A DNA stretch of 64,000 nt from Rufibacter tibetensis (GTDB lineage: Bacteria > Bacteroidota > Bacteroidia > Cytophagales > Hymenobacteraceae), in assembly GCF_001310085.1 (NCBI RefSeq), contig NZ_CP012643.1, forward strand, positions 4,842,001 to 4,906,000, given 5' to 3'. The notes under the pieces were generated by a model that was not told the origin of the DNA, did no database searches, and worked only from the letters and a program-made list of their open reading frames with translations. The translations under genes and the position numbers were made by a program. This document shows, in pieces, positions 124-62,977 of the stretch; positions within the stretch are counted from its first letter, which is position 1, and each line of letters begins with the position of its first letter.

Positions 124-624
124 CTATGATTTCAATTGCATTACTTCATCTGAGGTAAGAATCTTGAAGATATCCAGCACAATGATGAGCCGGTCTTCGT
201 GTTTTCCTATGCCTTCAATAAAGTTTTCATTGATGTTGATATCCTGAATAAAAGTAGGAGCCTTGTCAATGCTGGAGACTGGCAACGTCAAAGATTGGGG
301 CACCTCATGCACAATGAACCCCATGGTATATTCCTTCGCCTCCATTACCAGGGTATACGTATGCGGGGTAAACATGCCGGAAGGGCGCTCAATTCTGAAG
401 CGCTCTTCCAGATCCATGATGGCTATAATGTCTCCTCTAATGTTGGATACTCCTTTGATAAAAGAAGGTGTTTTGGGCATGCGGGTAATTTCAGGGGTAA
501 TAGTTACCTCCTTTACTTGGTCAATGCGAACCCCGTACTCTTCATTGCCTAATTTAAAGACAATGAGGTGTACCCGCTCTACTACCGAAACATCCTTTTT
601 ATCTCGTATATTCTGAGATTCCAT
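124..624 (-). CDS. cheW: CheW chemotaxis coupling protein
   Basis: This 166-aa protein has a single CheW domain (about residues 18-155). Visible signatures are the first beta-barrel strand LIVFKLGNEEYGVRIDQVKEV-type segment near residues 20-40 and the receptor-contact motif GVSNIRGDIIAIMDL (residues 58-72), with the conserved R63. CheW links chemoreceptors to the CheA kinase in signalling arrays. Its ATG shares one base (624) with the stop codon of the receptor gene upstream, so the two are probably translationally coupled and made in step. No CheA is in the window; it would have to be to the left or elsewhere. Confidence 0.93.
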   Translation of the reverse strand: MESQNIRDKKDVSVVERVHLIVFKLGNEEYGVRIDQVKEVTITPEITRMPKTPSFIKGVSNIRGDIIAIMDLEERFRIERPSGMFTPHTYTLVMEAKEYTMGFIVHEVPQSLTLPVSSIDKAPTFIQDININENFIEGIGKHEDRLIIVLDIFKILTSDEVMQLKS

Positions 625-3600
625 TATTCCTGGCCTCTGTTTTTAATCGTTTTCTTAACGGTTGGTTTCGTGCCGAAGTCGTTGTCATCTAAGTCGTCTC
701 CCGGGAAAGAACGTCTTCTTGGCGCTGGCACAGCCGTTAGTTTACGAGCGTTGCGGTTAGGGTAAACCAAGTTTCCGTTTACCAATTTGAAGGCAGAAAT
801 ACTCATCTGCAGATCATCTGCAATGTCATTCAGACGCTGGCTGGAAGAGGTCAGTTCCTGCATGGAAGTAGACAATTGCTTGGCTGTACCCGCTACTTGT
901 TGTGTACCAGAAGCAGTTTGTTCCGCAATGGCTACCACTTCTTCCACGTATTTAACTACGTCTCCAATAGACGTCTTCTGTACTTCAGTAGACACCAGAA
1001 TGTCTTGGGCACTACGTAGCGTTTCACCACTGGAGGTCGCAATGTTTTTAAAGGCGCCGGATGCTTCAAACGTAGCATTCTTTCCTTTCAATACCCGGCC
1101 CTCCATGGTTGCAATTGCTGCGGCAGCGGAAGAAGTATCTTTCTTCACGTCATCTACCAGCGTGCTGATTTCGCTTGCAGATTTACGGGATCCTTCCGCC
1201 AGCTTCCGTATTTCTTCGGCTACTACTGCAAAACCACGTCCTGCCTCACCAGCTCTAGCCGCCTCAATAGCTGCATTCAAAGCCAGCAAGTTGGTTTGAG
1301 CGGCAATGTCAGTAATTACTCCAAGGGATTTAGAGATCTCCTGGCTACGGGTACTCAATACTTCAATGGTTTTGGCAGTCAAGGCGGCAGAAGAAGAAAT
1401 TTCTTCCATGTTGCGCACCACTTCGGCCACAGTTTTCAGACCCAATTGAGAGGTTTCCTCTCCCATCACCGCAGAACGGTTCACCACATCAGCTTTGTTC
1501 GCAGTTTCTTTTGTGGCCTTCATGATTTCTTCAATCAACTTGAAGGCCTGGTCTGTTTTCAGAGCTTGGTTTTGCGCACCCTCTGCCATTTGTTGCATGG
1601 CCAAGGCTACATCTACTGTTACCCTGTTCATCTCCAATCCTTTAGCAGCCATCTCTTCAGAAGACGAACCTACGATGAGCGAAGAATCATTGATTTCACC
1701 CAACAGGGCATTCAGGTTATCTACCGCCAAGTTCAAGGCATTTGACATAGCCAGAATATCACCCGCAGTATGGATTTCAACCTTTTGGGTCAAATCACCC
1801 TCAGAAATAGAACGCACTACGCGAGATACTTCTAGTACTGGCGTTACAATAGACTCTAACAAATCATTTAACGTATCTACCAGTTCTTTCCAGCTTCCGC
1901 TCACACCGTGTACAGTGGCACGCTCTGTCAGTTTCCCTTCCACCCCTGCTACTCTGGCTACCCGGCTCACCTCACCCGCTAAACGATTCAGGTCTTCCAC
2001 CATGCTGTTGATGGTGTCTGCCAGGTCAGCTAATTCGCCTTTGGCTTGTAAGGTCAGCTTCTGGGTTAAGTCACCTTTAGATACCGCCGTTACTACTTTC
2101 ACGATTCCGCGAACCTGAGTTGTCAGGTTAGAAGCCATGATGTTCACGTTGTCAGTCAGGTCTTTCCAAACTCCTGCCACATTCGGCACAGCAGCCTGTC
2201 CACCTAATCTACCCTCAGTACCTACCTCAAGCGCCACCCGGGTTACCTCACCAGCGAAGATGTTCAGGGAATCCACCATCTGGTTCAGGTTGTCCTTCAG
2301 CTCAGCTAATTCACCACGTACATTCACCGTAATTTTCTGAGTTAAATCTCCTTTCGCTACCGCAGTAGCTACGTTCGCAATGTCCCGCACCTGAAGCGTC
2401 AGGTTAGACGCCATGGTGTTTACATTGTCAGTCAGGTCTTTCCAAACCCCAGCAACGTTAGGCACTTTGGCTTGTCCGCCTAGTCTTCCTTCGGTACCTA
2501 CCTCAAGCGCCACACGGGTTACTTCACCCGCGAAGATGTTGAGGGAGTCCACCATCTGGTTTAATATATCTTTTAGCTGAAGGATTTCACCCTTCACATT
2601 CACCGTCATTTTCTGGCTCAGGTCCCCTTTCGCTACTGCAGTCGCTACGTTGGCAATATCCCGCACCTGAGAGGTAAGGTTAGATGCCATGGAGTTCACG
2701 TTGTCAGTGAGCATTTTCCAGGTTCCTGCCACGTTAGGCACGGAAGCCTGGCCACCCAGTTTACCCTCAGTTCCTACCTCTAACGCCACGCGGGTTACCT
2801 CACCAGCGAAAACGTTCAGAGAGTCCACCATCTGGTTCAAGATGTTTTTCAGCTCCAAAAGCTCTCCTTTTACATCTACCGTAATCTTCTGGGTAAGGTC
2901 CCCTTTCGCTACCGCAGTAGCAACATTAGCAATGTCACGTACCTGCAGCGTCAGGTTAGAGGCCATTGAGTTCACATTGTCTGTCAACTCTTTCCAGGTA
3001 CCGCGTACTTTAGGCACATTGGCCTGACCACCCAGTTTACCTTCAGTTCCCACCTCTCTCGCTACCCGAGTTACCTCGTCTGCAAAGATGTTGAGGGAGT
3101 CCACCATTTGGTTTAGGTTGTTTTTCAGCTCTAAGAGCTCGCCTTTCACATCAACCGTTATCTTCTGGCTTAAGTCACCTCTTGCTACCGCAGTGGCTAC
3201 GTTGGCAATGTCCCTTACCTGAGAGGTAAGGTTACCAGCCATGAAGTTCACATTGTCAGTAAGGTCTTTCCAAACCCCGCCTACATTTGGCACAGATGCC
3301 TGTCCACCCAAGATACCTTCGGTGCCCACTTCACGAGCCACCCGGGTTACCTCCCCGGCGAAGATATTGAGGGAGTCCACCATCTGGTTCAGGTTGTCCT
3401 TCAATTGAAGAAGCTCGCCTTTCACGTCAACAGTGATTTTCTGACTTAAGTCACCACGGGCCACAGCTGTAGCTACGTTAGCTATATCTCTTACTTGAAG
3501 CGTCAAATTAGACGCCATTGAGTTTACGTTGTCGGTCAAGGCCTTCCAGGTACCGGCCACATTAGGTACAGCAGCCTGTCCACCTAACTTACCTTCGGTT

Positions 3601-6092
3601 CCTACCTCACGGGCCACGCGGGTTACTTCCCCGGCGAAGATATTCAAGGAGTCCACCATCTGGTTCAAGTTGTCCTTCAACTCGGCCAACTCCCCTTTCA
3701 CATTAACCGTGATTTTCTGGCTTAGGTCACCCCTTGCTACCGCGGTTGCTACATTAGCGATGTCGCGCACCTGAAGGGTCAGGTTAGAGGCCATCGAGTT
3801 CACGTTGTCCGTCAACGCCTTCCAGGTACCTGCTACGTTAGGCACAGTGGCCTGCCCGCCCAATTTACCTTCGGTACCTACCTCCAGTGCCACGCGGGTT
3901 ACCTCCCCGGCGAAGATATTGAGGGAGTCCACCATTTGGTTAAGGTTGTCCTTCAACTCGGCTAGTTCGCCTTTTACCCCAACGGTTACCTTTTGGCTCA
4001 AATCACCCCTTGCTACCGCAGTTGCTACGTTGGCAATGTCGCGTACCTGAGAGGTAAGGTTACCAGCCATGAAGTTCACATTATCAGTGAGGTCTTTCCA
4101 AACACCACCTACATTAGGTACAGTGGCTTGGCCGCCCAACTTACCTTCAGTTCCCACTTCACGCGCTACCCGGGTTACCTCACCGGCAAAGATATTGAGG
4201 GAGTCCACCATCTGGTTCAGGTTGTCCTTCAACTGAAGGAGCTCGCCTTTCACGTCCACAGTGATCTTTTGGGTTAAGTCGCCTTTTGCTACCGCAGTTG
4301 CCACGTTAGCAATGTCGCGCACTTGCAGCGTCAAGTTAGACGCCATGAAGTTCACGTTATCGGTTAAGTCTTTCCAAACACCGCCCACATTAGGCACGGT
4401 TGCCTGACCACCTAACTTACCTTCGGTTCCTACCTCAAGAGCCACACGAGTTACTTCCCCCGCGAAGATGTTGAGGGAGTCCACCATCTGGTTTAAGCTG
4501 TCTTTTAATTGAAGGAGCTCTCCGTTAACATTAACCGTGATTTTCTGGCTCAACTCGCCACGAGCCACCGCAGTCGCTACGTTCGCGATGTCACGCACCT
4601 GAAGGGTCAGGTTAGAAGCCATTGAGTTCACGTTGTCAGTAAGTTCTTTCCAAACTCCCGCTACTTTAGGCACGTTAGCTTGACCACCTAAGATTCCTTC
4701 AGTTCCTACTTCTCTCGCTACCCGAGTTACCTCATCTGCGAAGATGTTCAGGGAGTCCACCATTTGGTTCAGGTTGTCCTTCAGCTCGGCTAACTCACCT
4801 TTCACGTTTACCGTTATTTTTTGGGTCAAGTCACCTTTCGCTACCGCAGTGGCTACATTGGCGATGTCACGCAGCTGAGAGGTCAGGTTGGAAGCCATAG
4901 TGTTCACGTTGTCAGTAAGGTCTTTCCAAACTCCACCTACGTTCGGAACTTTCGCTTGGCCACCTAGCTTACCCTCGGTACCCACTTCACGGGCCACCCG
5001 GGTAACCTCATCACCGAAGATGTTCAAAGAGTCCACCATTTGGTTGATGTTCTCTTTCAATTGAAGCATTTCCCCTTTCAGGTCTACCGTTACTTTTTGG
5101 TCCAGGTTCCCCTGGGCAACAGCAGTAGTTACTTTCGCGATGTCCCGTACCTGAAGAGTAAGGTTAGACGCCATCGCATTTACATTATCAGTAAGTTCTT
5201 TCCAGATACCAGCCACGTTAGGCACTGATGCCTGACCGCCTAGTTTTCCCTCAGTACCTACTTCCAAGGCCACCCTAGTTACCTCACCGGCAAACAGGTT
5301 CAGGTTGTCAATAGTACGGTTGATGGTTTCAGCCATGACCTTGAAGTCACCGGACACAGGAATCTGGAACGTCTCGTCCAGGTTACCGCGAGAGATGTTC
5401 TTCAATACCTTGCCTACCTCCAATACCGGAACGGCGATGGAGTCTACCAGGCCGTTGATGTTGTTGATCATGTCCTTCCAGAAACCTGAGGCACTCTCAG
5501 CAGAGGCACGGGCTTTCAGGTTACCCTCTACCCCGGCAACTTTAGAGATACGCGACACCTCTCCTCCTACACCCCCAATCATCTCCACCATGGAGTTGTA
5601 GGCTTCGGCTATCTCTGAGAAGATGTCGTTGTTTTGTTTGGTCAAGCGCACCGAGACGTCTCCTTTTTTGAAGGCATCAAGGGCATAAAGCACGCGGTTC
5701 AGCTGCTCATTGATGTAGTCAGAATCCTGAGTCTGGGTAGTCTGGCGCGGAGAGTTGCTTTTCCGGGCCTGATCTGTAGTCTCAGCTTCCAAAGATGTTT
5801 TTTCCGTTTTATCGGCTTGTTTCTCCACTGTCTTTCCTCCTGCACGGGCTTTGGTAGTAGCAGCTCGTCCGTTTGTCTCTGTCAAGGGAAGGTCTACCAT
5901 TGAGGTGGCAGGAGTTTCCTGAACTGGCGTTTCCTCAGGCTGCTCTGCGACAGGAATATCTGCCGGTGCCGAGGCAGGGGCCTCTGCCGGTGCTGAGGCA
6001 GCAACATCCGTAGGCACCTCCACGGGTGTCTCGGCCTCCGTCTTCCCAATCAGTTTATCCTTGTTGAGTTTCAAGTTTTTACCTAAAGCCAT
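624..6092 (-). CDS. Soluble poly-HAMP methyl-accepting chemotaxis protein (about 15 HAMP units)
   Basis: A giant chemoreceptor of 1822 aa from the ATG at 6092; a GTG at 6131 would add 13 residues, but ATG starting MALGKN is preferred. There is no transmembrane segment or signal peptide, so it should be cytoplasmic. Order: a Pro/Ala/Glu-rich low-complexity N-terminus (about 20-125), about 15 consecutive HAMP-type units (about 125-1470), then an MCP signalling hairpin whose conserved tip ([16 protein letters not shown]) lies near residue 1600. The C-terminus is short, basic and Asp-rich, with no visible CheR-tethering pentapeptide. Eleven central units are nearly identical and exactly 92 residues long. 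No separate ligand-binding domain is visible, so sensing is either by the HAMP stack itself or through partners. Downstream cheW overlaps by 1 bp; an orphan ParA gene lies 128 bp upstream of this ATG (89 bp upstream of the GTG). Confidence 0.93.
2109..5144 (-). repeat. Eleven in-frame 276-bp tandem repeats inside the chemoreceptor gene
   Basis: Reading the receptor gene, eleven consecutive units begin with Asp-Ile-Ala and end with Gln-Val/Leu-Arg. Each is 92 codons, and the block from the first unit's Asp codon (5142-5144) to the last unit's Arg codon (2109-2111) is exactly 3036 bp = 11 x 276. Units differ mainly by alternations such as [22 protein letters not shown] and AELKD/LQLKD, which recur in shuffled combinations. 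That pattern suggests unit duplication and gene conversion. Flanking HAMP units on both sides are more diverged. Confidence 0.93.
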
Positions 6093-6220
6093 CTTATCTT
6101 TAATGAAGAACGTTAATATCCTCTGCAGCACCAGATGGTGCCAATATATTTATATTCAATGCCTGGGTTTAGGAGACATCTTCGCAATTTACTAATAAAA
6201 CAAGACTTCCGGAAGCTTTG

Positions 6221-54463: not shown

Positions 54464-54530
54464 AAATAGATTAAAAGCTGCAGTATGCATTAAATGTATT
54501 TTAAAAATATATAAGATTTAAGGTTGTGGT

Positions 54531-54737
54531 CTACAATGTATGATGGTTTCGGTAGTAAAATATTAGCTTCATAGCGTTATAGTGATTTTGTTTTTTTTTC
54601 GAGTAACAAGCCGTTTTCCTGACTATTCTTCTGTTCCTAGTCCTCAAGCACAGGTTCACCCCCTCAATGTTCTTGGTGTAGGCCTTTCCCACCAGGTGCT
54701 TTTCCGGTGGGAGTACCTGGTGGGAAAGGCCAGTCAT
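54531..54737 (-). pseudogene. IS1-family transposase C-terminal segment in the shifted frame (copy A)
   Basis: 68-codon frame holding the conserved IS1 transposase ending: KHLVGKAYTKNIEGVN (with the candidate catalytic Glu), LRTRNRRIVRKTACYSKKKQ and NAMKLIFYYRN. It is in the +1 frame relative to the upstream part, and its N-terminal 10 codons overlap that part inside the hairpin. It ends within the terminal repeat. Not expected to be made alone; needs frameshifting or is a remnant. Confidence 0.8.
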
Positions 54738-55230
54738 CGGAGCAAAGCCAACCGATGTTTAGTGGCTGCAGTTGCCTGTAAAGCTTTCTGACCGTATTCT
54801 GGCTGCGGTTCCCCCAACTCCAGGCCAGCACCTCGTCGGTTTCCGGTGCGTAGGCGTAAAAAAGCCACCTCTTGCGCTTCTTGCGCTGGCCAACAAAGGT
54901 CCACACCTCATCCATCTGCACTGACTTGTATGCTTCGAGGCGGGGCTTTACCTGTAGGCTCTCCGCCTTCTGGTTCAGCCACCTGAGCACCGTTTGCCGG
55001 TGTACGCCTGTCACTTCTTCAACGTCGCGGCCGCCGGAATTGCGCACCAGCATGCCCAGCACCAGCTGTCTAACCGCTGGCCGGCAGCCAGCCTTCGCAT
55101 ACTCAAGCTGGAACTGCTTTCGGCGAAGCCGGCACATAAAATTCTGCCTGCCCGTACGCTTCATGCCGTTTTTCACTACTTTCACTCCGTGCCAGTAGGG
55201 GCAGTTTACCCGGATAGTTATCTCGCACAT
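54664..55230 (-). CDS. IS1-family transposase, upstream frame (copy A)
   Basis: 188 aa. An IS1 InsA-like N-terminus with a degenerate zinc finger (C10-P-Y-W13 and C33-R-L-R36 in place of CxxC pairs), HTH about 55-88 (VEEVTGVHRQTVLRWLN), then InsB-like DDE start MDEVWTF (D107) and the second Asp in CSDDW (D165/166). The third catalytic acid is encoded in a different frame (54531-54737), so this frame alone lacks a full catalytic triad. The break coincides with a 17-bp hairpin at 54681-54731. Confidence 0.9.
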   Translation of the reverse strand: MCEITIRVNCPYWHGVKVVKNGMKRTGRQNFMCRLRRKQFQLEYAKAGCRPAVRQLVLGMLVRNSGGRDVEEVTGVHRQTVLRWLNQKAESLQVKPRLEAYKSVQMDEVWTFVGQRKKRKRWLFYAYAPETDEVLAWSWGNRSQNTVRKLYRQLQPLNIGWLCSDDWPFPPGTPTGKAPGGKGLHQEH

Positions 55231-55312
55231 AACTTCCAGAAAACACTCTTGCTGTCCTACTTATTCCAACATCATACATTGTAGACCACAACCAGATTTT
55301 TTATTCAATAAT

Positions 55313-56791
55313 CTAAGCGTTTAAAGCAGTTTTCTTAATTTTCTCTAAAGCTAATTCCCATAAATGCTCATATGGGATAATTTCAATTTCTGCGTAGGCG
55401 TCTCCTGGGGTGGGAGTACGTTGTAATTTTTGATACAAATAAAGACCTTTTTTTTGTGTTGTTAAGTAATCAAAATTAGATCTAACTAACACATTCAATA
55501 ATTTGAAAAAAGTGCGGCTACGCTCGCTAAAACTGTCTTTAAAATGATGTAATGCATATTTTTTCAAAGAATCAACCCTATACTCCAAAGCTTCATAATC
55601 ACTTATTTCAAGGTAATACATTACCTGCAAAATAACTATAGCCACATTAAATCCTTCCTTATCCTTGCTGTATTCAGAAGTATTCAATACTAATGATTGC
55701 CACTTTAAAGGCTGATCTACTAAAGGGTGGACAAAATGGAGGTAAGCTTCAAATAAAATCCATCTTTCCTGAGCGTATTTATTTATCTTTTTGATAAAAG
55801 TGTTCTCCTGAACTTGATGTAATAGCATATGTGCTACCTCATATTTCTTAGCATGAATGGCTAAAAGAGTATAGTTCTCCATGAAAGCAAACCAGTTGTT
55901 GCTTGAAGGAGTAAAAGAAGGTAAATACGCATTAGCTAAGGCTAAACCCTCTTCCAGCTTCTTAGCTCGTAAATAGGCATAAACTTGTATAAACTTATTA
56001 AACCTATGATCAAACCTTTTAGAAACATTATCAAAGTCTTTGATTACCTCTTCAGAATACGTAGTTAAACTTACAATTTCATCAAAATTGCCATTTAATT
56101 CATGCAACCACATCGATATTCTGTAATAATAATTAAAAGTATCAAAGGTTTTCGCTTTCTGCCATAATGAATTCATCTTTTCCAGGACATCATTCACCTT
56201 TACCAGGTATGCTTTGCGAGCTACAATAGAATGGCTGAGCTCAATACTTGCCTCAGAGAAAAACATCTCCGCCTCTTGATCAGCAGCCACTTTTAACATC
56301 ACATTATCTAATTGCTTAACAGCTTTATAAAATAAGTTTCTTTCTTTTAAATTAACATATGATTGAATGATCGCTTTCAGACATAAAGAGGAAATATAAT
56401 TAAAATCGTATTCCGTAGCTTTAGCTAGAGCCTGCTTAAGCAGGGGTAAAGCAAGGTCATTACCTCCAGAGTCTATCAACACTCTTGCTTGTAATAGCTT
56501 TGCTAAGCAGCCTTGCTCTACAGCATGTGGAGCTTGGATACTTTCATTCTTTTCATCTACTAAAAAGAGTTGATTCATTAATTTTTTCCGCAATCTGGAT
56601 TTAATCATTTTCAATCCACCCTTCTCTTGCCCATCTGGATAGAGAAATGATATAGCAGAATTGTCATCCACAATATTTCCCGAGGATATTTCCTGATATA
56701 AACGCTTTTCTTTTGATTTACTAGAAAATAATTGTGCAGGATTCCCTATCCTTTTATCAATTATTTGAATTAATTTGATTAATTCATCCAT
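55313..56791 (-). CDS. Helical-repeat (TPR-like) protein with basic N-terminus; candidate peptide-sensing regulator
   Basis: 492 aa, no signal peptide or membrane segment, so cytoplasmic. About residues 1-85 are a conserved-looking N-terminal module with SKEKRLYQEISSGNIVDDNS and a Lys/Arg-rich helix LKMIKSRLRKKLMNQLFLVD. The rest is all-helical, with aromatic/Leu pairs at TPR-like intervals (LAKLLQARVLIDSGG, LPLLKQALAKATEYDFNY, FMENYTLLAIHAKKYEVAHMLLHQV). I know similar proteins in Cytophagales as multi-copy families of unknown function, often next to small ORFs and transporters. No classical HTH is recognised. It is divergent from the 63-aa small ORF (282 bp), the layout of an RRNPP regulator-peptide pair. 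Function is inference. Confidence 0.75.
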   Translation of the reverse strand: MDELIKLIQIIDKRIGNPAQLFSSKSKEKRLYQEISSGNIVDDNSAISFLYPDGQEKGGLKMIKSRLRKKLMNQLFLVDEKNESIQAPHAVEQGCLAKLLQARVLIDSGGNDLALPLLKQALAKATEYDFNYISSLCLKAIIQSYVNLKERNLFYKAVKQLDNVMLKVAADQEAEMFFSEASIELSHSIVARKAYLVKVNDVLEKMNSLWQKAKTFDTFNYYYRISMWLHELNGNFDEIVSLTTYSEEVIKDFDNVSKRFDHRFNKFIQVYAYLRAKKLEEGLALANAYLPSFTPSSNNWFAFMENYTLLAIHAKKYEVAHMLLHQVQENTFIKKINKYAQERWILFEAYLHFVHPLVDQPLKWQSLVLNTSEYSKDKEGFNVAIVILQVMYYLEISDYEALEYRVDSLKKYALHHFKDSFSERSRTFFKLLNVLVRSNFDYLTTQKKGLYLYQKLQRTPTPGDAYAEIEIIPYEHLWELALEKIKKTALNA

Positions 56792-57073
56792 ATTTTAATT
56801 TAAGGTATAGTACCGTCTGAATTACTTTTGACTATAAATAAGTTTTAAATATAATAACTATATGGAACACTATAAAGGAAAAAATGTTACAGATAAGCAT
56901 AAAAACATTAAAAATTTATTTATAACTATGCCTTTTATATCTATCTATACGTTTATAAAAGTATTATATAAAAATTTCTTTAAATCTTTATAGTGATTAT
57001 TATCACCAATCTTTCCTTTAGCGCGTCATTCAAATTATCCACTTTTGCAATGAACTCTATAACTAATTAAATC
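56792..57073. other. A+T-rich divergent intergenic region
   Basis: 282 bp between the helical-repeat protein and the small ORF. Contains the dyad GTGATTATTATCAC at 56993-57006 (5-bp arms) and a near-consensus CACTTTTG about 30 bp before the small ORF, one mismatch from TAnnTTTG. It would carry promoters in both directions. No protein-coding frame is visible. Confidence 0.4.
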
Positions 57074-57265
57074 ATGATAGAATTACTTCTCGCTCTGCTC
57101 CTGCAACTTACAGTATTAACAGGAAGTCAAAATGACAAAAACCATAAAGATCCAAACACAAATTCCACTACCACTACAACCCAAACAGGCACCACTGCTA
57201 CAGGTGGAACAGATACTAAATTAAACAGCAAAGGTGGTTCAGGCACTTGGGACAACCGCGATTAA
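57074..57265 (+). CDS. Small exported peptide candidate (hydrophobic leader, Thr/Gly-rich tail)
   Basis: 63 aa. Residues 1-17 are strongly hydrophobic (MIELLLALLLQLTVLTGS), like a signal or transmembrane helix, but with an acidic rather than basic n-region. The rest is a low-complexity hydrophilic tail of Asn, Thr and Gly (NDKNHKDPNTNSTTTTTQTG...) ending GGSGTWDNRD. The codon structure and position between a divergent helical-repeat gene and an Opp transporter make it likely to be translated. It resembles precursor peptides of Firmicutes quorum systems only in layout. No similar protein is known to me. Confidence 0.6.
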   Translation: MIELLLALLLQLTVLTGSQNDKNHKDPNTNSTTTTTQTGTTATGGTDTKLNSKGGSGTWDNRD

Positions 57266-57296
57266 ATAGATATATTATAACCTACACTACTATATT

Positions 57297-57316
57297 TAAC
57301 CTTTTCGATAAGGTTA
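57297..57316 (+). terminator. Small hairpin between the small ORF and the binding-protein gene
   Basis: Arms 57297-57303 (TAACCTT) and 57310-57316 with a 6-nt loop. Could attenuate transcription so the small ORF is made in excess over the transporter. Confidence 0.4.
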
Positions 57317-57392
57317 TTATAAGTGAGCCAAGGCAAATTGAGGCAAGTTTTGTAATATTGAGCAGGGCGAATGCCTGTAATATTTGCTCTAT

Positions 57393-59120
57393 ATGAAAAA
57401 TAACTGTGCTAAAAGCCTTGGCTTGCTTTTTTTATGGCTTTTATCTTCTTGCTCAACTCCTTCCAAGGATGACTCTACTATCATAATACGCTTAGCTCAA
57501 GATCCAGTATCCTTGAACCCAATAAGTTATGGCAACGGTCACTCCCTTCAACTACTAAACTATATTTACCAAAGCCTCCTAGTAACAGAATTAAAAGACA
57601 AATCTATAAAGCCTTTGCTGGCAGTAGATTTACCAACAATTAGGAGAGATGATACAAGTTCATATTTCACCTTCACCATAAGGCCTGAAGCAAACTGGGA
57701 TAACAACTCACCTGTAACGGCAAAAGATGTGGCTTTCTCTCTAAAGTTACTTCACAGCCCACTGTTGGAGAATGAAAGGTGGAGGGCCCAGTTTGACTTT
57801 ATTCAAGACATTCAACTTTCTCCTACCAATCCTAAAGTTTTTACATTAGTCTGCAAGGGGTATACACCTGAAATGAAACTAATGACTGGGGACTACTTTG
57901 TACTTCCTGCTTACCTTTTTGATCCTAACGGGATTATCTCTAATGTCCCTTTTAGATTGATCAGACAAAGGTTTGATTCACTATCTACAACCACAACCTT
58001 TAAATCATTTTCAAAACTAATAAACAATTCAAATTTGGCGAGAGACACCGCCTTCATCAAAGGAAGTGGTCCTTATAGAATAACCAAATGGAACTCTGGC
58101 CAAATAGTTGTATTAGACAAGAAGAAATCTTGGTGGGGGAACAAAGCAGAAAAAGGAAAAAATGTTTTAAATAACAATCCTTCTCGCTTGTTTTTCCAGA
58201 TAATCCCAGACAATGCTGCTGCCATTCTAGCACTTAAAACAAGGCAGATAGATGTAATGGACAATGTACCTCTTGTTTCATTTCTTGAAATGCAGAAAGA
58301 CCTCAAATACAAAGAGTTCTACAACTTTCACTCTCCTCCATCTTATGATTTAGTATATATAGGAGTAAATGGGAAAAAGAAAATTTTTGAAGATAAACAA
58401 ACAAGGCAGGCTTTAGCACATCTTTTTAATACTTCTCAATTAATCTCCTCCGTTCAGGGTGGTTTGGCTACTTCAACTGTCGGATTAGTTCACCCTCAAG
58501 AAGAAGAATTCTACAACTCAGAATTAAAGAAGTTGGAATTTGATCCTAACAAAGCTAAAACACTTTTACGATTAGCTGGCTGGCAAGAAACTACAGAGGG
58601 TTGGCAAAAGACAATAAGAGGCAAGCTAGAGAAGTTGCACATGAACCTTATTTATAGGGGGGGCAATTCTGATTTTGAAAACATAGCTTTACTTTTCAAG
58701 CAAAATGCCCTTAAAATTGGAATAGTGGTAACACTTCAGCCAATGGAAAGTAGTCAAATAGGTGAAAAGCTTCAAAGTAAGAATTTTGACCTATTTATCA
58801 GAACACTGATGGGCAATCCTTATTTTTACAATTTTATTCCTTTACTGCATTCTTCAAACTCCAAAGAAGGTGGAGGGAATATAACAGGTTTTGGCACCCC
58901 TGCTACAGATTTATTATTGGAACAAATAGCAGAGGAAGAACACATAATAGAAAAGGCATCTCTTTTGAAGGAACTTCAGAGAAAAATGCAGGAGGAGAGT
59001 AATATGATTTTTCTTTACTTCATGAAGAACAGGATTGCTATATCTAAACAGATTGATTCTGTAGTAGTATCAGGTATAAAACCAGGTTATGATGTTACCA
59101 GATTTATAAAAAAGAAATAA
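57393..59120 (+). CDS. OppA/DppA-family oligopeptide-binding lipoprotein
   Basis: 575 aa from the ATG at 57393. Lipoprotein signal with lipobox Cys 20 (LLFLWLLSSCS). The SBP_bac_5 body shows IIIRLAQDPVSLNPISYGNG, NYIYQSLLV, the EANWDNNSPVTAKDVAFSLKLL segment and the FIKGSGPYRITKWNSGQIVVL motif. It captures peptides outside the inner membrane. Two permease genes follow at once in the same operon, but no ATPase genes. Adjacent to the small-peptide ORF, which could be its ligand (inference). Confidence 0.9.
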   Translation: MKNNCAKSLGLLFLWLLSSCSTPSKDDSTIIIRLAQDPVSLNPISYGNGHSLQLLNYIYQSLLVTELKDKSIKPLLAVDLPTIRRDDTSSYFTFTIRPEANWDNNSPVTAKDVAFSLKLLHSPLLENERWRAQFDFIQDIQLSPTNPKVFTLVCKGYTPEMKLMTGDYFVLPAYLFDPNGIISNVPFRLIRQRFDSLSTTTTFKSFSKLINNSNLARDTAFIKGSGPYRITKWNSGQIVVLDKKKSWWGNKAEKGKNVLNNNPSRLFFQIIPDNAAAILALKTRQIDVMDNVPLVSFLEMQKDLKYKEFYNFHSPPSYDLVYIGVNGKKKIFEDKQTRQALAHLFNTSQLISSVQGGLATSTVGLVHPQEEEFYNSELKKLEFDPNKAKTLLRLAGWQETTEGWQKTIRGKLEKLHMNLIYRGGNSDFENIALLFKQNALKIGIVVTLQPMESSQIGEKLQSKNFDLFIRTLMGNPYFYNFIPLLHSSNSKEGGGNITGFGTPATDLLLEQIAEEEHIIEKASLLKELQRKMQEESNMIFLYFMKNRIAISKQIDSVVVSGIKPGYDVTRFIKKK

Positions 59121-59126
59121 GCTTTG

Positions 59127-60488
59127 ATGTTTATTTTCAGATTTTGCTTCAAAACTATACGGCTCATAATTACTCTCTGGATTACTGTATCTTTTGTTTT
59201 TATACTTAGTCATTTCCTTCCTATAAACAAAGCACCTAAAGGAATGCTGGAGGAAAATTCCGCAGTTTATGGAAACACAAATACAAATACCTTAAACCAG
59301 GTAAGAGATGATTTCCTACATCGAAAAGGACTAGACCTGCCCCTTTTCTATTTTGATTTTATTCAATTAGGCAAAATAAAAGCAGAACAGGTGCCATCTA
59401 CTCAGGAAGACAAACCTTGGACTACTGCCGCGGTTATGAGGCATGGAGTAAAAGGCACACATGCTTTTTATGTGTTTTGGCAAGAATGGGCCAAAAACGT
59501 AAAAGAAAATGATAAAATCAGACTTTTCTCGAAACTGCTTTACTGGGCTGAGGAGAAAGAATATGCTTCAGTAAATAATTTAGGAAAGGAAATTATTCTA
59601 TATCTTCTAAAAACTCCAAATAGTGCAAATCTACAGTTAGCAAATGCTTGGAAAAACCTTCAGGAGAACGAAGTTCCTTTCCACTATCATTTACCTTTCT
59701 CAATTTGGAACGGAAGTAACAATATTTACCACCAGTGGTTAAGCAACTTGATCATTGGTGAGCTAGGTTTCTCTAATCAAGACCAAACTCCCGTTTTAGA
59801 AAAGATTAAGGCCGCATTTCAGGTCTCGTCATCTTTGGCCTTGGCAGGATTGATAACAGCGCTATTCCTTTCCTTTTTAGGTAGCCTTTATTTATCACAA
59901 AATCCCACTTCTGTTTTTACCCAAGTGTGCCAAAAATTTTTATACCTGTTAGATAGCATACCTGGTTTTTTAATTGCGCTAGGTATTTTTGCCATTTACC
60001 TTTCATTAGGTGGCACCCTCTCTTTCTACCTTTATGGGGAAGCTACAGAAAGCCTTTTTCAACATTTCTTAAATCCTTCTGTATTATTAGGTAGTGTTTG
60101 CATCGCTTTATTAGTGACCCCACACCTCACTTTACAATTTGTGCAGGGGCTTCTTGAACAGAAAAGCAAGCTCTACTTTAGAACTGCTTTAGGTAAAGGT
60201 TATTCTTACAAAAAAGCAATGAGGAAGCACGCATTGCCAAATACCCTTGTGCCTACCATTACCTTGTTAAGTGAAGTGATTATAAGCTTAGTAGCTGGGG
60301 TGTTGGTAGTGGAAATTACGTTTTCTTTGCCAGGAATAGGGAGTTTGTTTACTGATTCTATCATAAATGGTGATTATCCAGTTATGGTAGGCCTAACTCT
60401 TTTGTTGCTGGTATTTAGATTAGGGGTAGTATGGCTTTCAGAACTAGCCTTTGTATTTATTGATCCAAGAATGAAGAATAATCTGTAG
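59127..60488 (+). CDS. OppB/DppB-type permease with a large extracytoplasmic insertion
   Basis: 453 aa from the ATG at 59127, 6 bp after the binding-protein stop. TM1 about 12-30, then the usual GLDLPLFYF segment (68-76), an insertion of about 120 residues (77-200) rich in Lys, Trp and helices, then YHQWLSNLIIGELGFSNQ, which rejoins the standard DppB sequence and about five further helices. The cytoplasmic EAA-like loop is FRTALGKGYSYKKAMRKHAL. The insertion lies in the periplasmic loop, where the binding protein docks. Confidence 0.88.
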   Translation: MFIFRFCFKTIRLIITLWITVSFVFILSHFLPINKAPKGMLEENSAVYGNTNTNTLNQVRDDFLHRKGLDLPLFYFDFIQLGKIKAEQVPSTQEDKPWTTAAVMRHGVKGTHAFYVFWQEWAKNVKENDKIRLFSKLLYWAEEKEYASVNNLGKEIILYLLKTPNSANLQLANAWKNLQENEVPFHYHLPFSIWNGSNNIYHQWLSNLIIGELGFSNQDQTPVLEKIKAAFQVSSSLALAGLITALFLSFLGSLYLSQNPTSVFTQVCQKFLYLLDSIPGFLIALGIFAIYLSLGGTLSFYLYGEATESLFQHFLNPSVLLGSVCIALLVTPHLTLQFVQGLLEQKSKLYFRTALGKGYSYKKAMRKHALPNTLVPTITLLSEVIISLVAGVLVVEITFSLPGIGSLFTDSIINGDYPVMVGLTLLLLVFRLGVVWLSELAFVFIDPRMKNNL

Positions 60489-60492
60489 ATCA

Positions 60493-61545
60493 ATGAACTT
60501 AGCATCTACTTGGCGTTCTCTCTCTATCATTGAAAAGTTTTCCTTAATCTGGTTCCTGTTATTTTCTGCATCAGCGTTGATTGCACATGTTCTAACTATT
60601 CTAGGGAAAGAACCTGTTGCCTATCCGGAGCAATCATTTTTAGCTCCCTTTGAATCTTATGATCATTTGTTAGGAACTGACCACCTAGGAAGAGATTTAT
60701 TATTCTACCTTTTATTGAGTTGCAGAAGCGCATGGTTGTTAGCCATTCCTCCCTTAGTGATAGCTACTGCTTTTGGAATCTTAACAGGAACAAGTGCAGC
60801 CATCCTTGGAAATACAGGGTTAAAGATTTCTTCCTTCAAGCTTATTATCTTATCCTTCTCTCTCCTCCTTTTCTTTATTCTTCATGAACCGTTAGTCAAA
60901 TTGGTAGATATGTGGGGAAAGGGCTACCTAAAGTATTTTATTTATAGTGGGACCTTTTTGTTGCTAGCTTTAATAGCAATGAATAAACTACCCCTATACA
61001 TACCTTTAAAAAAAAATCTTATAGTACCTGTAGATGAAGCCCTACAAAAGATTATAAATGTTTGGTCTACCCTGCCTAAGTTACTTTTACTTCTAGTTCT
61101 AAGTGCCTTTACTCCCTTTTCTATCTATAGCTTAATGGGATGGATATGTGTGACATACTGGGTACTCCCTGCTCGTATAACGAGGGCAAGTGTCTTGCAG
61201 TTAAGAGAAGAAACTTATTATGAAACAACAAAGGCTTTAGGAACCCCCTTTCAGAAGGTTTTTATTCAATTTATATGGCCCTCAATCAAAGGTCCAATTT
61301 TAACAAACTTTTGCTTTGCAGCCTCTGGCTTACTAGGCATTGGTTCTACCTTAGCTTATTTAGGGATAGGCATCCCGCCTGATGTACCTTCCTGGGGGAA
61401 GCTTCTAGCAAATTCCCGTTATTCAATTGATGCTTGGTGGACATTTGTATTCCCAGCTTTATTGCTTCTTCTAAGTATCCTTAGTTTACAATCAATTGGG
61501 AACAGATTTTCTTCAAAAGCTAACTACGAATCTGTTACTAAATAG
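60493..61545 (+). CDS. OppC/DppC-type permease
   Basis: 350 aa, starting 4 bp after the OppB stop. An N-terminal transmembrane helix, then the LLGTDHLGRDLLFYLLLS hallmark of DppC (about residues 58-75), the EAA loop REETYYETTKALGTPFQKVFIQFIWP, and GIGIPPDVPSWGKLLANS near the end. An unusually hydrophobic extra segment (about 105-170) lies between helices 2 and 4, longer than in classic OppC. It forms the channel with the OppB subunit; ATPases must be encoded elsewhere. Confidence 0.9.
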   Translation: MNLASTWRSLSIIEKFSLIWFLLFSASALIAHVLTILGKEPVAYPEQSFLAPFESYDHLLGTDHLGRDLLFYLLLSCRSAWLLAIPPLVIATAFGILTGTSAAILGNTGLKISSFKLIILSFSLLLFFILHEPLVKLVDMWGKGYLKYFIYSGTFLLLALIAMNKLPLYIPLKKNLIVPVDEALQKIINVWSTLPKLLLLLVLSAFTPFSIYSLMGWICVTYWVLPARITRASVLQLREETYYETTKALGTPFQKVFIQFIWPSIKGPILTNFCFAASGLLGIGSTLAYLGIGIPPDVPSWGKLLANSRYSIDAWWTFVFPALLLLLSILSLQSIGNRFSSKANYESVTK

Positions 61546-61730
61546 TAAATTAAATTAAATTAAGGCCTACTTTATTAACAATAAAAGCTTTTAAGGGGCA
61601 TTAAATCAATTTTAAGTTTATTAAATTATATAATTTATAAACAAATAACAAGTTCTTCTTTATTAGATTCTTTCCTATTTATCACTCTTTGCTCCTATTA
61701 TTATTGTATCATAATAAAGAGCAACAGGAA

Positions 61731-61991
61731 ATGAATGTATCTGGGAAAAGTTTAATCACTACTTTAAATAAGCAGTTTCATCCAAGAGTAGCCTTACAGG
61801 TTACTAAGAAACCTGGTGGGCAAACTTCTAGATCTTTATTTTTCAAGATAGAAAATTTCTCTTCTAAAGCAATAGGAAACTTGGGAGAATTTTCAACCAC
61901 TTCATTGTCTGAAGGGTTTGTACTGGATGGCTTCTTTCTAGGCACTTTTGAATTTGATTCACTCACTGGGCATCCAGGTATAAGATATTAA
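61731..61991 (+). CDS. Small protein of unknown function after the transporter
   Basis: 86 aa from the ATG at 61731 (frame open from 61689). No signal peptide or clear domain. The composition is polar with several aromatic residues: LEFKIENFSSKA-type middle, GEFSTTSLSEGFVLDGFFLGTFEFD and a C-terminal GHPGIRY. It is 185 bp downstream of the OppC stop and ends before a strong terminator. It could be a second precursor peptide or a leaderless small protein. I do not recognise it. Confidence 0.5.
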   Translation: MNVSGKSLITTLNKQFHPRVALQVTKKPGGQTSRSLFFKIENFSSKAIGNLGEFSTTSLSEGFVLDGFFLGTFEFDSLTGHPGIRY

Positions 61992-62098: not shown

Positions 62099-62260
62099 AT
62101 GCATTTTGATGTAAAGCACAAGAAAACATGTACAAAACTTTATCTACATTAATGTATTGTAGTTTTGAATTAAGGAATGAACACCTAAAAATTACTAGGT
62201 TGTGGTCTACAATGTATGATGTTGGAATAAGTAGGGCAGCAAGAGTGTTTTCTGGAAGTT

Positions 62261-62827
62261 ATGTGCGAGATAACTATCCGGGTAAACTGCCCCTACTGGC
62301 ACGGAGTGAAAGTAGTGAAAAACGGCATGAAGCGTACGGGCAGGCAGAATTTTATGTGCCGGCTTCGCCGAAAGCAGTTCCAGCTTGAGTATGCGAAGGC
62401 TGGCTGCCGGCCAGCGGTTAGACAGCTGGTGCTGGGCATGCTGGTGCGCAATTCCGGCGGCCGCGACGTTGAAGAAGTGACAGGCGTACACCGGCAAACG
62501 GTGCTCAGGTGGCTGAACCAGAAGGCGGAGAGCCTACAGGTAAAGCCCCGCCTCGAAGCATACAAGTCAGTGCAGATGGATGAGGTGTGGACCTTTGTTG
62601 GCCAGCGCAAGAAGCGCAAGAGGTGGCTTTTTTACGCCTACGCACCGGAAACCGACGAGGTGCTGGCCTGGAGTTGGGGGAACCGCAGCCAGAATACGGT
62701 CAGAAAGCTTTACAGGCAACTGCAGCCACTAAACATCGGTTGGCTTTGCTCCGATGACTGGCCTTTCCCACCAGGTACTCCCACCGGAAAAGCACCTGGT
62801 GGGAAAGGCCTACACCAAGAACATTGA
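62261..62827 (+). CDS. IS1-family transposase, upstream frame (copy B)
   Basis: 188 aa, identical to the copy A protein by inspection. Degenerate zinc finger (W13 and R36 where Cys is expected), HTH about 55-88, first catalytic Asp D107 in MDEVWTF, second in CSDDW (D165/166). After residue 167 it reads into non-homologous sequence (FPPGTPTGKAPGGKGLHQEH) because the frame changes at the 62760-62810 hairpin. The real C-terminus continues in the frame at 62754-62960. Confidence 0.9.
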   Translation: MCEITIRVNCPYWHGVKVVKNGMKRTGRQNFMCRLRRKQFQLEYAKAGCRPAVRQLVLGMLVRNSGGRDVEEVTGVHRQTVLRWLNQKAESLQVKPRLEAYKSVQMDEVWTFVGQRKKRKRWLFYAYAPETDEVLAWSWGNRSQNTVRKLYRQLQPLNIGWLCSDDWPFPPGTPTGKAPGGKGLHQEH

Positions 62828-62960
62828 GGGGGTGAACCTGTGCTTGAGGACTAGGAACAGAAGAATAGTCAGGAAAACGGCTTGTTACTCGAAAAAAAAA
62901 CAAAATCACTATAACGCTATGAAGCTAATATTTTACTACCGAAACCATCATACATTGTAG
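62754..62960 (+). pseudogene. IS1-family transposase C-terminal segment in the shifted frame (copy B)
   Basis: 68 codons in the +1 frame that carry the conserved KHLVGKAYTKNIEGVN motif with the candidate third catalytic residue, and the basic end RTRNRRIVRKTACYSKKK. A product joining both frames would need a +1 (or -2) shift inside or just before the hairpin. Confidence 0.8.
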
Positions 62961-62977
62961 ACCACAACCAATTACTA

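Follow-up and report, generated by a model that had tools for sequence, protein, structure and literature searches.

A candidate import-type peptide-signalling unit in Rufibacter tibetensis and its relatives in the Hymenobacteraceae

Does a compact block of genes in the Gram-negative bacterium Rufibacter tibetensis encode a peptide pheromone together with the machinery to re-import and sense it? The block lies in a stretch of 64,000 nucleotides (assembly GCF_001310085.1, contig NZ_CP012643.1, positions 4,842,001 to 4,906,000), hereafter called the window, from a genome assigned to the family Hymenobacteraceae. A 492-aa protein resembling tetratricopeptide-repeat (TPR) proteins, the candidate cytoplasmic peptide receptor, is encoded on the minus strand (55313..56791). 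Divergently, on the plus strand, follow a 63-aa propeptide candidate (57074..57265), a peptide-binding lipoprotein of the SBP_bac_5 family (57393..59120, Pfam E 8.8e-55; ATG start, with a TTG at 57384 possible too), referred to below as the substrate-binding protein (SBP), and two Opp/Dpp-type permeases with BPD_transp_1 domains (59127..60488, E 1.9e-18, and 60493..61545, E 3.7e-17), with gaps of 6 and 4 bp among the transporter genes. An earlier interpretation made from the letters alone (the sequence-only reading) had described these open reading frames (ORFs) and gaps, all of which are found in the window, and had viewed the block as a possible Bacteroidota analogue of the RRNPP systems. 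The literature on Bacillota and their mobile elements describes peptide pheromones that re-enter the cell, where cytoplasmic TPR proteins sense them (PMC11343458; PMC10075063), and the RRNPP/RRNPPA members named include Rap, Rgg, NprR, PlcR, PrgX and AimR (PMC11343458). The conserved unit, reading frame, tail and co-occurrence reported here support the proposed analogy, and we consider it likely that the block works as a self-contained unit for peptide signalling; its pheromone would leave the cell, be trimmed, return by import and be detected by the TPR-like protein.

A profile of the 492-aa protein, scanned over 84,980 species genomes, yielded 59 named loci. The sequence-only reading had proposed a search for homologues with no small ORF or transporter nearby as a check on itself; within the family the unit proved intact, the divergent neighbour being an SBP followed by two Opp-type permeases in 56 of the 59. 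Three loci without an SBP match (L088, L093 and L094), from metagenome bins of Cyclobacteriaceae, Bacteroidia and Saprospiraceae, had been set aside beforehand, and loci from a family sample were not added to the named ones, to avoid double counting. The gap between receptor and SBP holds a small ORF on the SBP strand in 56/56 loci (45-78 aa by the rule applied), with a hydrophobic leader (MIELLLALLLQL... in the window), a variable linker, rich in Thr and Asn in the window, and a C-terminal G..W tail, mostly GG[ST]..W. The rule picked up an ORF in 8 of 5600 Markov shuffles of the gaps and in 0/56 cases on the opposite strand; the rules for the small ORF, like the promoter motif described below, were written after viewing examples, with shuffles and random stretches as controls. 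The tail takes the form GGxx(x)W in 54 of 58 small ORFs, with IGSGGWDDKN or AIGWDDND as the ending of the remaining four. One Adhaeribacter locus (L048) has three tandem small ORFs. Pontibacter loci carry up to four tandem receptor paralogues (L059, L092), and it may be asked whether several receptors serve one signal where two to four of them stand beside a single small ORF (L059, L079, L052, L092).

Across the window and 11 Rufibacter-group loci (12 sequences), the ratio of non-synonymous to synonymous polymorphism (pN/pS) drops from 0.36 in the first 16 codons to 0.15 in the last 10, and the linker varies, giving 62-75 codons overall, always in frame. Judged by this substitution pattern, the small reading frame is under selection; a lack of conservation of the 63-aa frame, which the sequence-only reading had named as grounds for giving it up, was not observed. 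The last ten codons, encoding GGSGTWDNRD (57233..57262, plus strand), are the candidate mature signal peptide.

Nothing supports the tail as the released, functional part more strongly than the multi-copy layout of its equivalent in two sister genera, g5 and g6, where the candidate signal becomes readable from sequence because evolution has repeated it. Genus g6 is probably Hymenobacter, because a receptor homologue on a plasmid of Hymenobacter sp. BRD128 (L282, NZ_CP053909.1) is closer to the g5/g6 receptors (up to 42.5% identity) than to that of the window (29.2%), and g6 is the largest genus in the family sample. From g5 (3) and g6 (55), 58 loci were compared, 18 from an order-level scan and 40 added. 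A small ORF is present in 57 of them, the exception (L176) being the second receptor paralogue of its genome; this count comes from a widened detection rule, the first having given 51/58 (SBP mis-picks at L108 and L111), with six of the seven misses being tandem-repeat precursors by eye. The C-terminal unit occurs in 2-20 tandem copies in 42 of the 57 precursors, with the maximum of 20 in L166 (the numbers for L116, L156 and L163 being minimum values); examples of the unit are EHGGSSGWGDGH, TGSGGWGHSDV and DHGNGGWSG. Nine-residue units share an identity of 0.92 within a precursor (1046 pairs) versus 0.53 between precursors (1485 pairs), and 38 of 55 consensus units are distinct. In several cases (e.g. 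L113, L120, L184 and L187), the stop codon comes straight after the last copy, just as it does after the single copy of the window. The repetition of this segment thus lends backing to the earlier guess of a functional role for the GGSGTWDNRD end. The precursor of yeast alpha-factor is likewise a polyprotein of near-identical peptide copies with spacers, the copies being alike inside one precursor and different from species to species; this is an analogy only, the yeast peptide depending on the eukaryotic secretory pathway and a surface G-protein-coupled receptor. Several identical or near-identical pheromone copies with short spacers are also described for tandem-pheromone Phr propeptides in Bacillus and phages infecting it (PMC11343458). 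The account given there for the phages is of usually 1-4 copies, with up to 8 mentioned, whereas the g5/g6 precursors reach higher numbers and belong to another phylum.

The receptor and the importer are distributed together. In a sample of 200 family genomes, the receptor is present in 193; a cassette-type SBP is found in all 193 (best E 9.3e-67 or lower) versus none of the seven receptor-less genomes, which have only a remote SBP paralogue (best E 1.6e-9 to 4.0e-7). Permease 1 shows the same split in 18 genomes (E <=5.4e-26 in the 11 with the receptor, ~1e-14 in the seven others), and homologues of an OppDF-like ATPase are present in all 18. The importer had been described as lacking ATPases, which holds at the locus but not in the genome: its one ORF with two oligo_HPY matches encodes a fused OppDF-like ATPase of 607 aa in trans, 2.8 Mb away (G000:C1:2123207-2125030), and the 17 kb around it show no further transporter gene. 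The notion of an oddity, an importer working without ATPases, was rejected on this ground. Two genomes from a single genus of family f22 (L138 and L140) have a fused OppDF gene next after the receptor gene, in the same orientation; its product at L140 is 46% identical to the ATPase of the window genome. The parts of an Opp/Dpp/App importer are thereby all present, namely an SBP_bac_5 lipoprotein, two BPD_transp_1 permeases and OppD/OppF-type ATPase domains; the cassette differs from such importers in the remote, fused ATPase, in the length of permease 1 and in the ties of its SBP and permeases to a receptor and a propeptide gene. Of the 453 aa of permease 1, a large N-terminal portion lies beyond the permease domain; the counterpart at the g6 locus L251 has 354 aa.

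Peptide import could also serve nutrition. The small protein might then be a membrane-anchored helper of the SBP, its tail an SBP docking tag, and the TPR-like protein a regulator sensing food peptides, with nutritional or cell-wall peptides as the cargo. The window genome has four BPD_transp_1 matches, the cassette pair and a pair in a Pst-like operon (read by eye); the cassette permeases are its sole Opp-type pair, which makes some general uptake role likely, and the best solved relatives of the SBP include ordinary oligopeptide binders, with AppA (1xoc) at the top. Yet a second, remote SBP is present in 6/6 cassette-bearing g6 genomes tested, and the seven cassette-less genomes retain a remote SBP, a remote permease and the ATPase, so that the cassette importer appears dispensable for general uptake there. 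A docking tag, moreover, would not require up to 20 copies per chain, and we regard the nutritional explanation as very unlikely.

The candidate receptor is modelled as an all-helical, TPR-like superhelix with good confidence (predicted local distance difference test score, pLDDT, 87.6; predicted template modelling score 0.81). It has a basic N-terminal module (approximately residues 1-80) and, over its ~492 aa, a conserved C-terminal half. The 50 listed Foldseek hits are mostly TPR or helical-repeat proteins, among them AimR at rank 18 (template modelling score 0.49 on the target), Rap at 39 and NprR at 43, all at E >1e-3. When modelled alone, the N-terminal 90 residues form a separate helical module (pLDDT 79.8), the PDB hits of which include sigma-factor region 4 domains at non-significant E values (1.7, for the best hit, and 4.3). 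The sequence-only reading had proposed to look for a TPR groove and a DNA-binding module; the confident helical model is TPR-like, its PDB hits being non-significant, and the N-terminal module found no significant DNA-binding match. The receptor matched no RRNPP family in Pfam (14, 76 and 54 members searched), in NCBIfam or in a PDB profile search; only weak generic TPR matches came up. The protein thus appears RRNPP-like in layout but not by sequence. The window genome encodes a second, remote TPR-like relative (G000:C1:3695656-3696405, a 528-aa frame, E 4.6e-6).

Upstream of the small ORF, comparison of motifs revealed a candidate promoter or operator, in the window AGTNA-N16-TTCCTTT-N24-TTTG (56992..57047, plus strand), with the consensus A[AG]T[CTG]A-N16-T[TG]CCTTT-N24-TTTG. 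Its TTTG box resembles the -7 element of Bacteroidota promoters. The spacing is 16 in 61 of 62 two-box matches and 24 in 72 of 76. Counted in the same sequences from which it was derived, the full motif is present in 35/59 regions (the window and 58 named-locus small ORFs) and 23/57 g5/g6 regions, 58/116 in total, with 5 matches in 5000 random stretches and 5 in 5800 shuffles as controls; the first two boxes occur in none of 53 receptor-side stretches. A scan of 16 genomes of the genus, allowing one mismatch at most, returned 45 matches versus 21 with the reversed pattern. Sixteen of the 45 are exact, of which 14 lie at the cassette (one each in 14 genomes, none in G037 and G051) and two elsewhere (L257, L273), with no convincing gene beside them. 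The remaining 29 one-mismatch matches are close to the control, and no operator regulon is claimed. Two of these 29, in two genomes (L275 and L279, downstream of position 1556), precede similar small lipoprotein-like ORFs (MKK..A.FLTGML.LSCVT). Our hypothesis is that the receptor binds the element upstream of the propeptide gene.

Several observations weigh against the block being a signalling unit of this kind. The pairing of the receptor with a small ORF and an importer, which the sequence-only reading expected of its homologues, holds within the family and is not general outside it. The receptor family occurs in 85/291 genomes of the order and in 32/395 of a phylum sample. A divergent candidate for the small ORF exists at four of 20 distant loci in the order (L125, L128, L130 and L136), and none of the 20 has an SBP or permease match beside the receptor in the stretches examined. 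The three named loci set aside beforehand have no candidate small ORF, and at the phylum level one is present in 2/15 loci (L227 and L230, from one genus of family f44), both ending in IDRTED. Together with DEDGW and GDGEGW, this is one of the other tails seen in distant Bacteroidota receptor/small-ORF pairs, which are leads and not results. The plasmid homologue L282 adjoins a tyrosine recombinase and has neither a small ORF of the cassette type nor an importer nearby. Within g5 and g6, an SBP match was obtained in 52/58 stretches; of the six others, L116, L156 and L163 are cut by a contig end and L123, L154 and L176 are not. The seven losses of receptor and SBP may represent one event in one clade. 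On the side of the receptor, Foldseek found no match to its model in the PDB at E<=1e-3, and a helix-turn-helix assignment for the N-terminal module was dropped, Foldseek and Pfam giving no significant DNA-binding match. The strict promoter motif is absent from half of the regions, including all those of Adhaeribacter. Finally, Lys or Arg occurs within the first 16 leader residues in 1/58 small ORFs of the named loci and 5/57 of g5/g6, compared with 56/56 SBP leaders having one within the first eight residues, and export is uncertain because the basic start of a usual Sec signal is lacking.

The leader is hydrophobic but does not look like a textbook Sec signal. It has an acidic residue at positions 2-4 in 32/58 and 32/57 sequences of the two sets, and position 11 is Q in 54/57 g5/g6 leaders and Q or N in 41/58 of the others. 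Matches of the small ORF to New_glue (20 bits, with a Pfam cut-off of 31; E 5.6e-4) and to spore_YhcN_YlaJ (in NCBIfam, E 0.017) fell below threshold and were discarded, being judged low-complexity. By the positive-inside rule, a leader lacking a basic N-terminus and often acidic at its start favours an N-out orientation, and the small protein might accordingly stay in the inner membrane, N-out/C-in, its cytoplasmic tail binding the TPR-like protein as a cell-intrinsic switch while the importer acts elsewhere. The small ORFs without an adjoining importer at distant loci fit such a switch. It is nevertheless highly unlikely in our judgement, as the receptor and the peptide-binding importer co-occur perfectly in the 200 genomes and the tandem copies with their spacers look made for cleavage.

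When ORFs of at least 100 aa around the 56 loci were clustered, the receptor, SBP and permease 1 were recovered in all 56 and permease 2 in 55, and apart from syntenic neighbours no further gene is conserved with the unit. This includes enzymes modifying ribosomally synthesised and post-translationally modified peptides (RiPPs), dedicated exporters and immunity genes, none of which is conserved with the unit in the 56 loci; nor did Pfam reveal any among the eight window neighbours or 10 of the 14 listed ORFs around L251, where a carbamoyltransferase lies ~4.5 kb from the cassette. A leader with conserved tandem core peptides is a known RiPP precursor layout. That the small ORF is the precursor of a secreted antimicrobial or other RiPP-like natural product, with the importer recovering or detoxifying the product and the TPR-like protein as regulator, is nevertheless the least probable of the alternatives, since such accompanying genes are missing from the loci compared and the precursor is present in almost every receptor-bearing family genome examined, unlike the patchily distributed bacteriocins. 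Some Bacteroidales RiPP clusters contain TPR-domain genes, for which signalling is raised as a possibility (PMC10352776); as described there, their architecture differs from that of the cassette and modification enzymes are present.

The cassette is flanked by two inverted copies of an IS1-family insertion sequence (54522-55303 and 62186-62969), 99.5% identical. A composite transposon was considered and rejected, as relatives keep the cassette at the matching syntenic place. Counterparts of the window's ATG22/MFS-type and amidohydrolase genes adjoin it in 47/56 and 45/56 loci, respectively (matched by eye); these neighbours look like plain synteny, and the insertion sequences look like later arrivals because the relatives have the cassette beside the neighbour genes. 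Downstream of permease 2, the second small ORF of the sequence-only reading is present, with a better start at ATG 61728 (61728..61991, plus strand, 87 aa, against 100 aa if read from TTG 61689). By tblastn it is matched at 10 of the 11 Rufibacter-group loci, L085 being the exception, and at none of the other 48 named loci, and an NCBIfam search gave no match; its place in the signalling unit is uncertain. Elsewhere in the window, an 1835-aa ORF with many near-identical repeat units, HAMP-like by eye (624-6131), adjoins a CheW-like ORF (124-624).

Comparison of sequences thus provides a conserved unit, a conserved reading frame, a conserved or repeated tail, co-occurrence, a conserved promoter and an ATPase in trans. 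From these we infer a pathway of export, processing, uptake and binding, with a transcriptional or DNA target and a response that may depend on cell density. The propeptide would be inserted in, or exported across, the inner membrane via its hydrophobic leader, and proteases would release the C-terminal ~8-10 residues, as GGSGTWDNRD in the window and in many copies from sister-genus precursors. The released segment would be captured by the SBP lipoprotein and taken up through the two permeases, powered by the fused OppDF ATPase encoded elsewhere. Inside the cell, the peptide would bind in the groove of the TPR-like protein and alter its activity, most likely towards the conserved promoter upstream of the propeptide gene, which would give feedback, and towards further targets. 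Such a pathway resembles the RRNPP systems in the small candidate propeptide gene adjoining a cytoplasmic TPR-like protein, the putative C-terminal signal, the predicted Opp-type import and the basic, helical N-terminal module as candidate effector; the adjacent propeptide gene with a conserved C-terminal segment is found in all 56 gaps and at 57 of the 58 g5/g6 loci. It differs in that the cassette belongs to a Gram-negative phylum, the receptor matches no RRNPP family by sequence and is a sensor of ~492 aa, the unit includes its own SBP and permeases, and the leader has no basic start.

The detector described in PMC10075063 was run on Firmicutes and viruses only, and the main text of PMC9765709 is without any word beginning Bacteroid. 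Our own literature search, which covered titles and the starts of abstracts and left many subscription journals uncovered, returned no such Bacteroidota system among the matches listed. The cassette is more general than the sequence-only reading could see, and its comparative record is best explained by an import-type peptide-signalling unit of a Gram-negative family. In a bolder form, to which we give an even chance, the Hymenobacteraceae would own an import-type peptide pheromone system with a receptor family lacking sequence matches to RRNPP families. The precursor of the sister genus, probably Hymenobacter, would be an alpha-factor-like polyprotein, its copies homogenised within species and diverging between them into species-specific pheromone types; the receptor would act on the AGTNA-N16-TTCCTTT-N24-TTTG promoter of its own propeptide, and related pairs of receptor and small ORF, with different tails, would occur in distant Bacteroidota. 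Receptor specificity and co-evolution can readily be tested on the series of species-specific tails. If the signalling reading is true, a large group of Gram-negative bacteria would communicate from cell to cell with peptides, as is known from Gram-positive bacteria.

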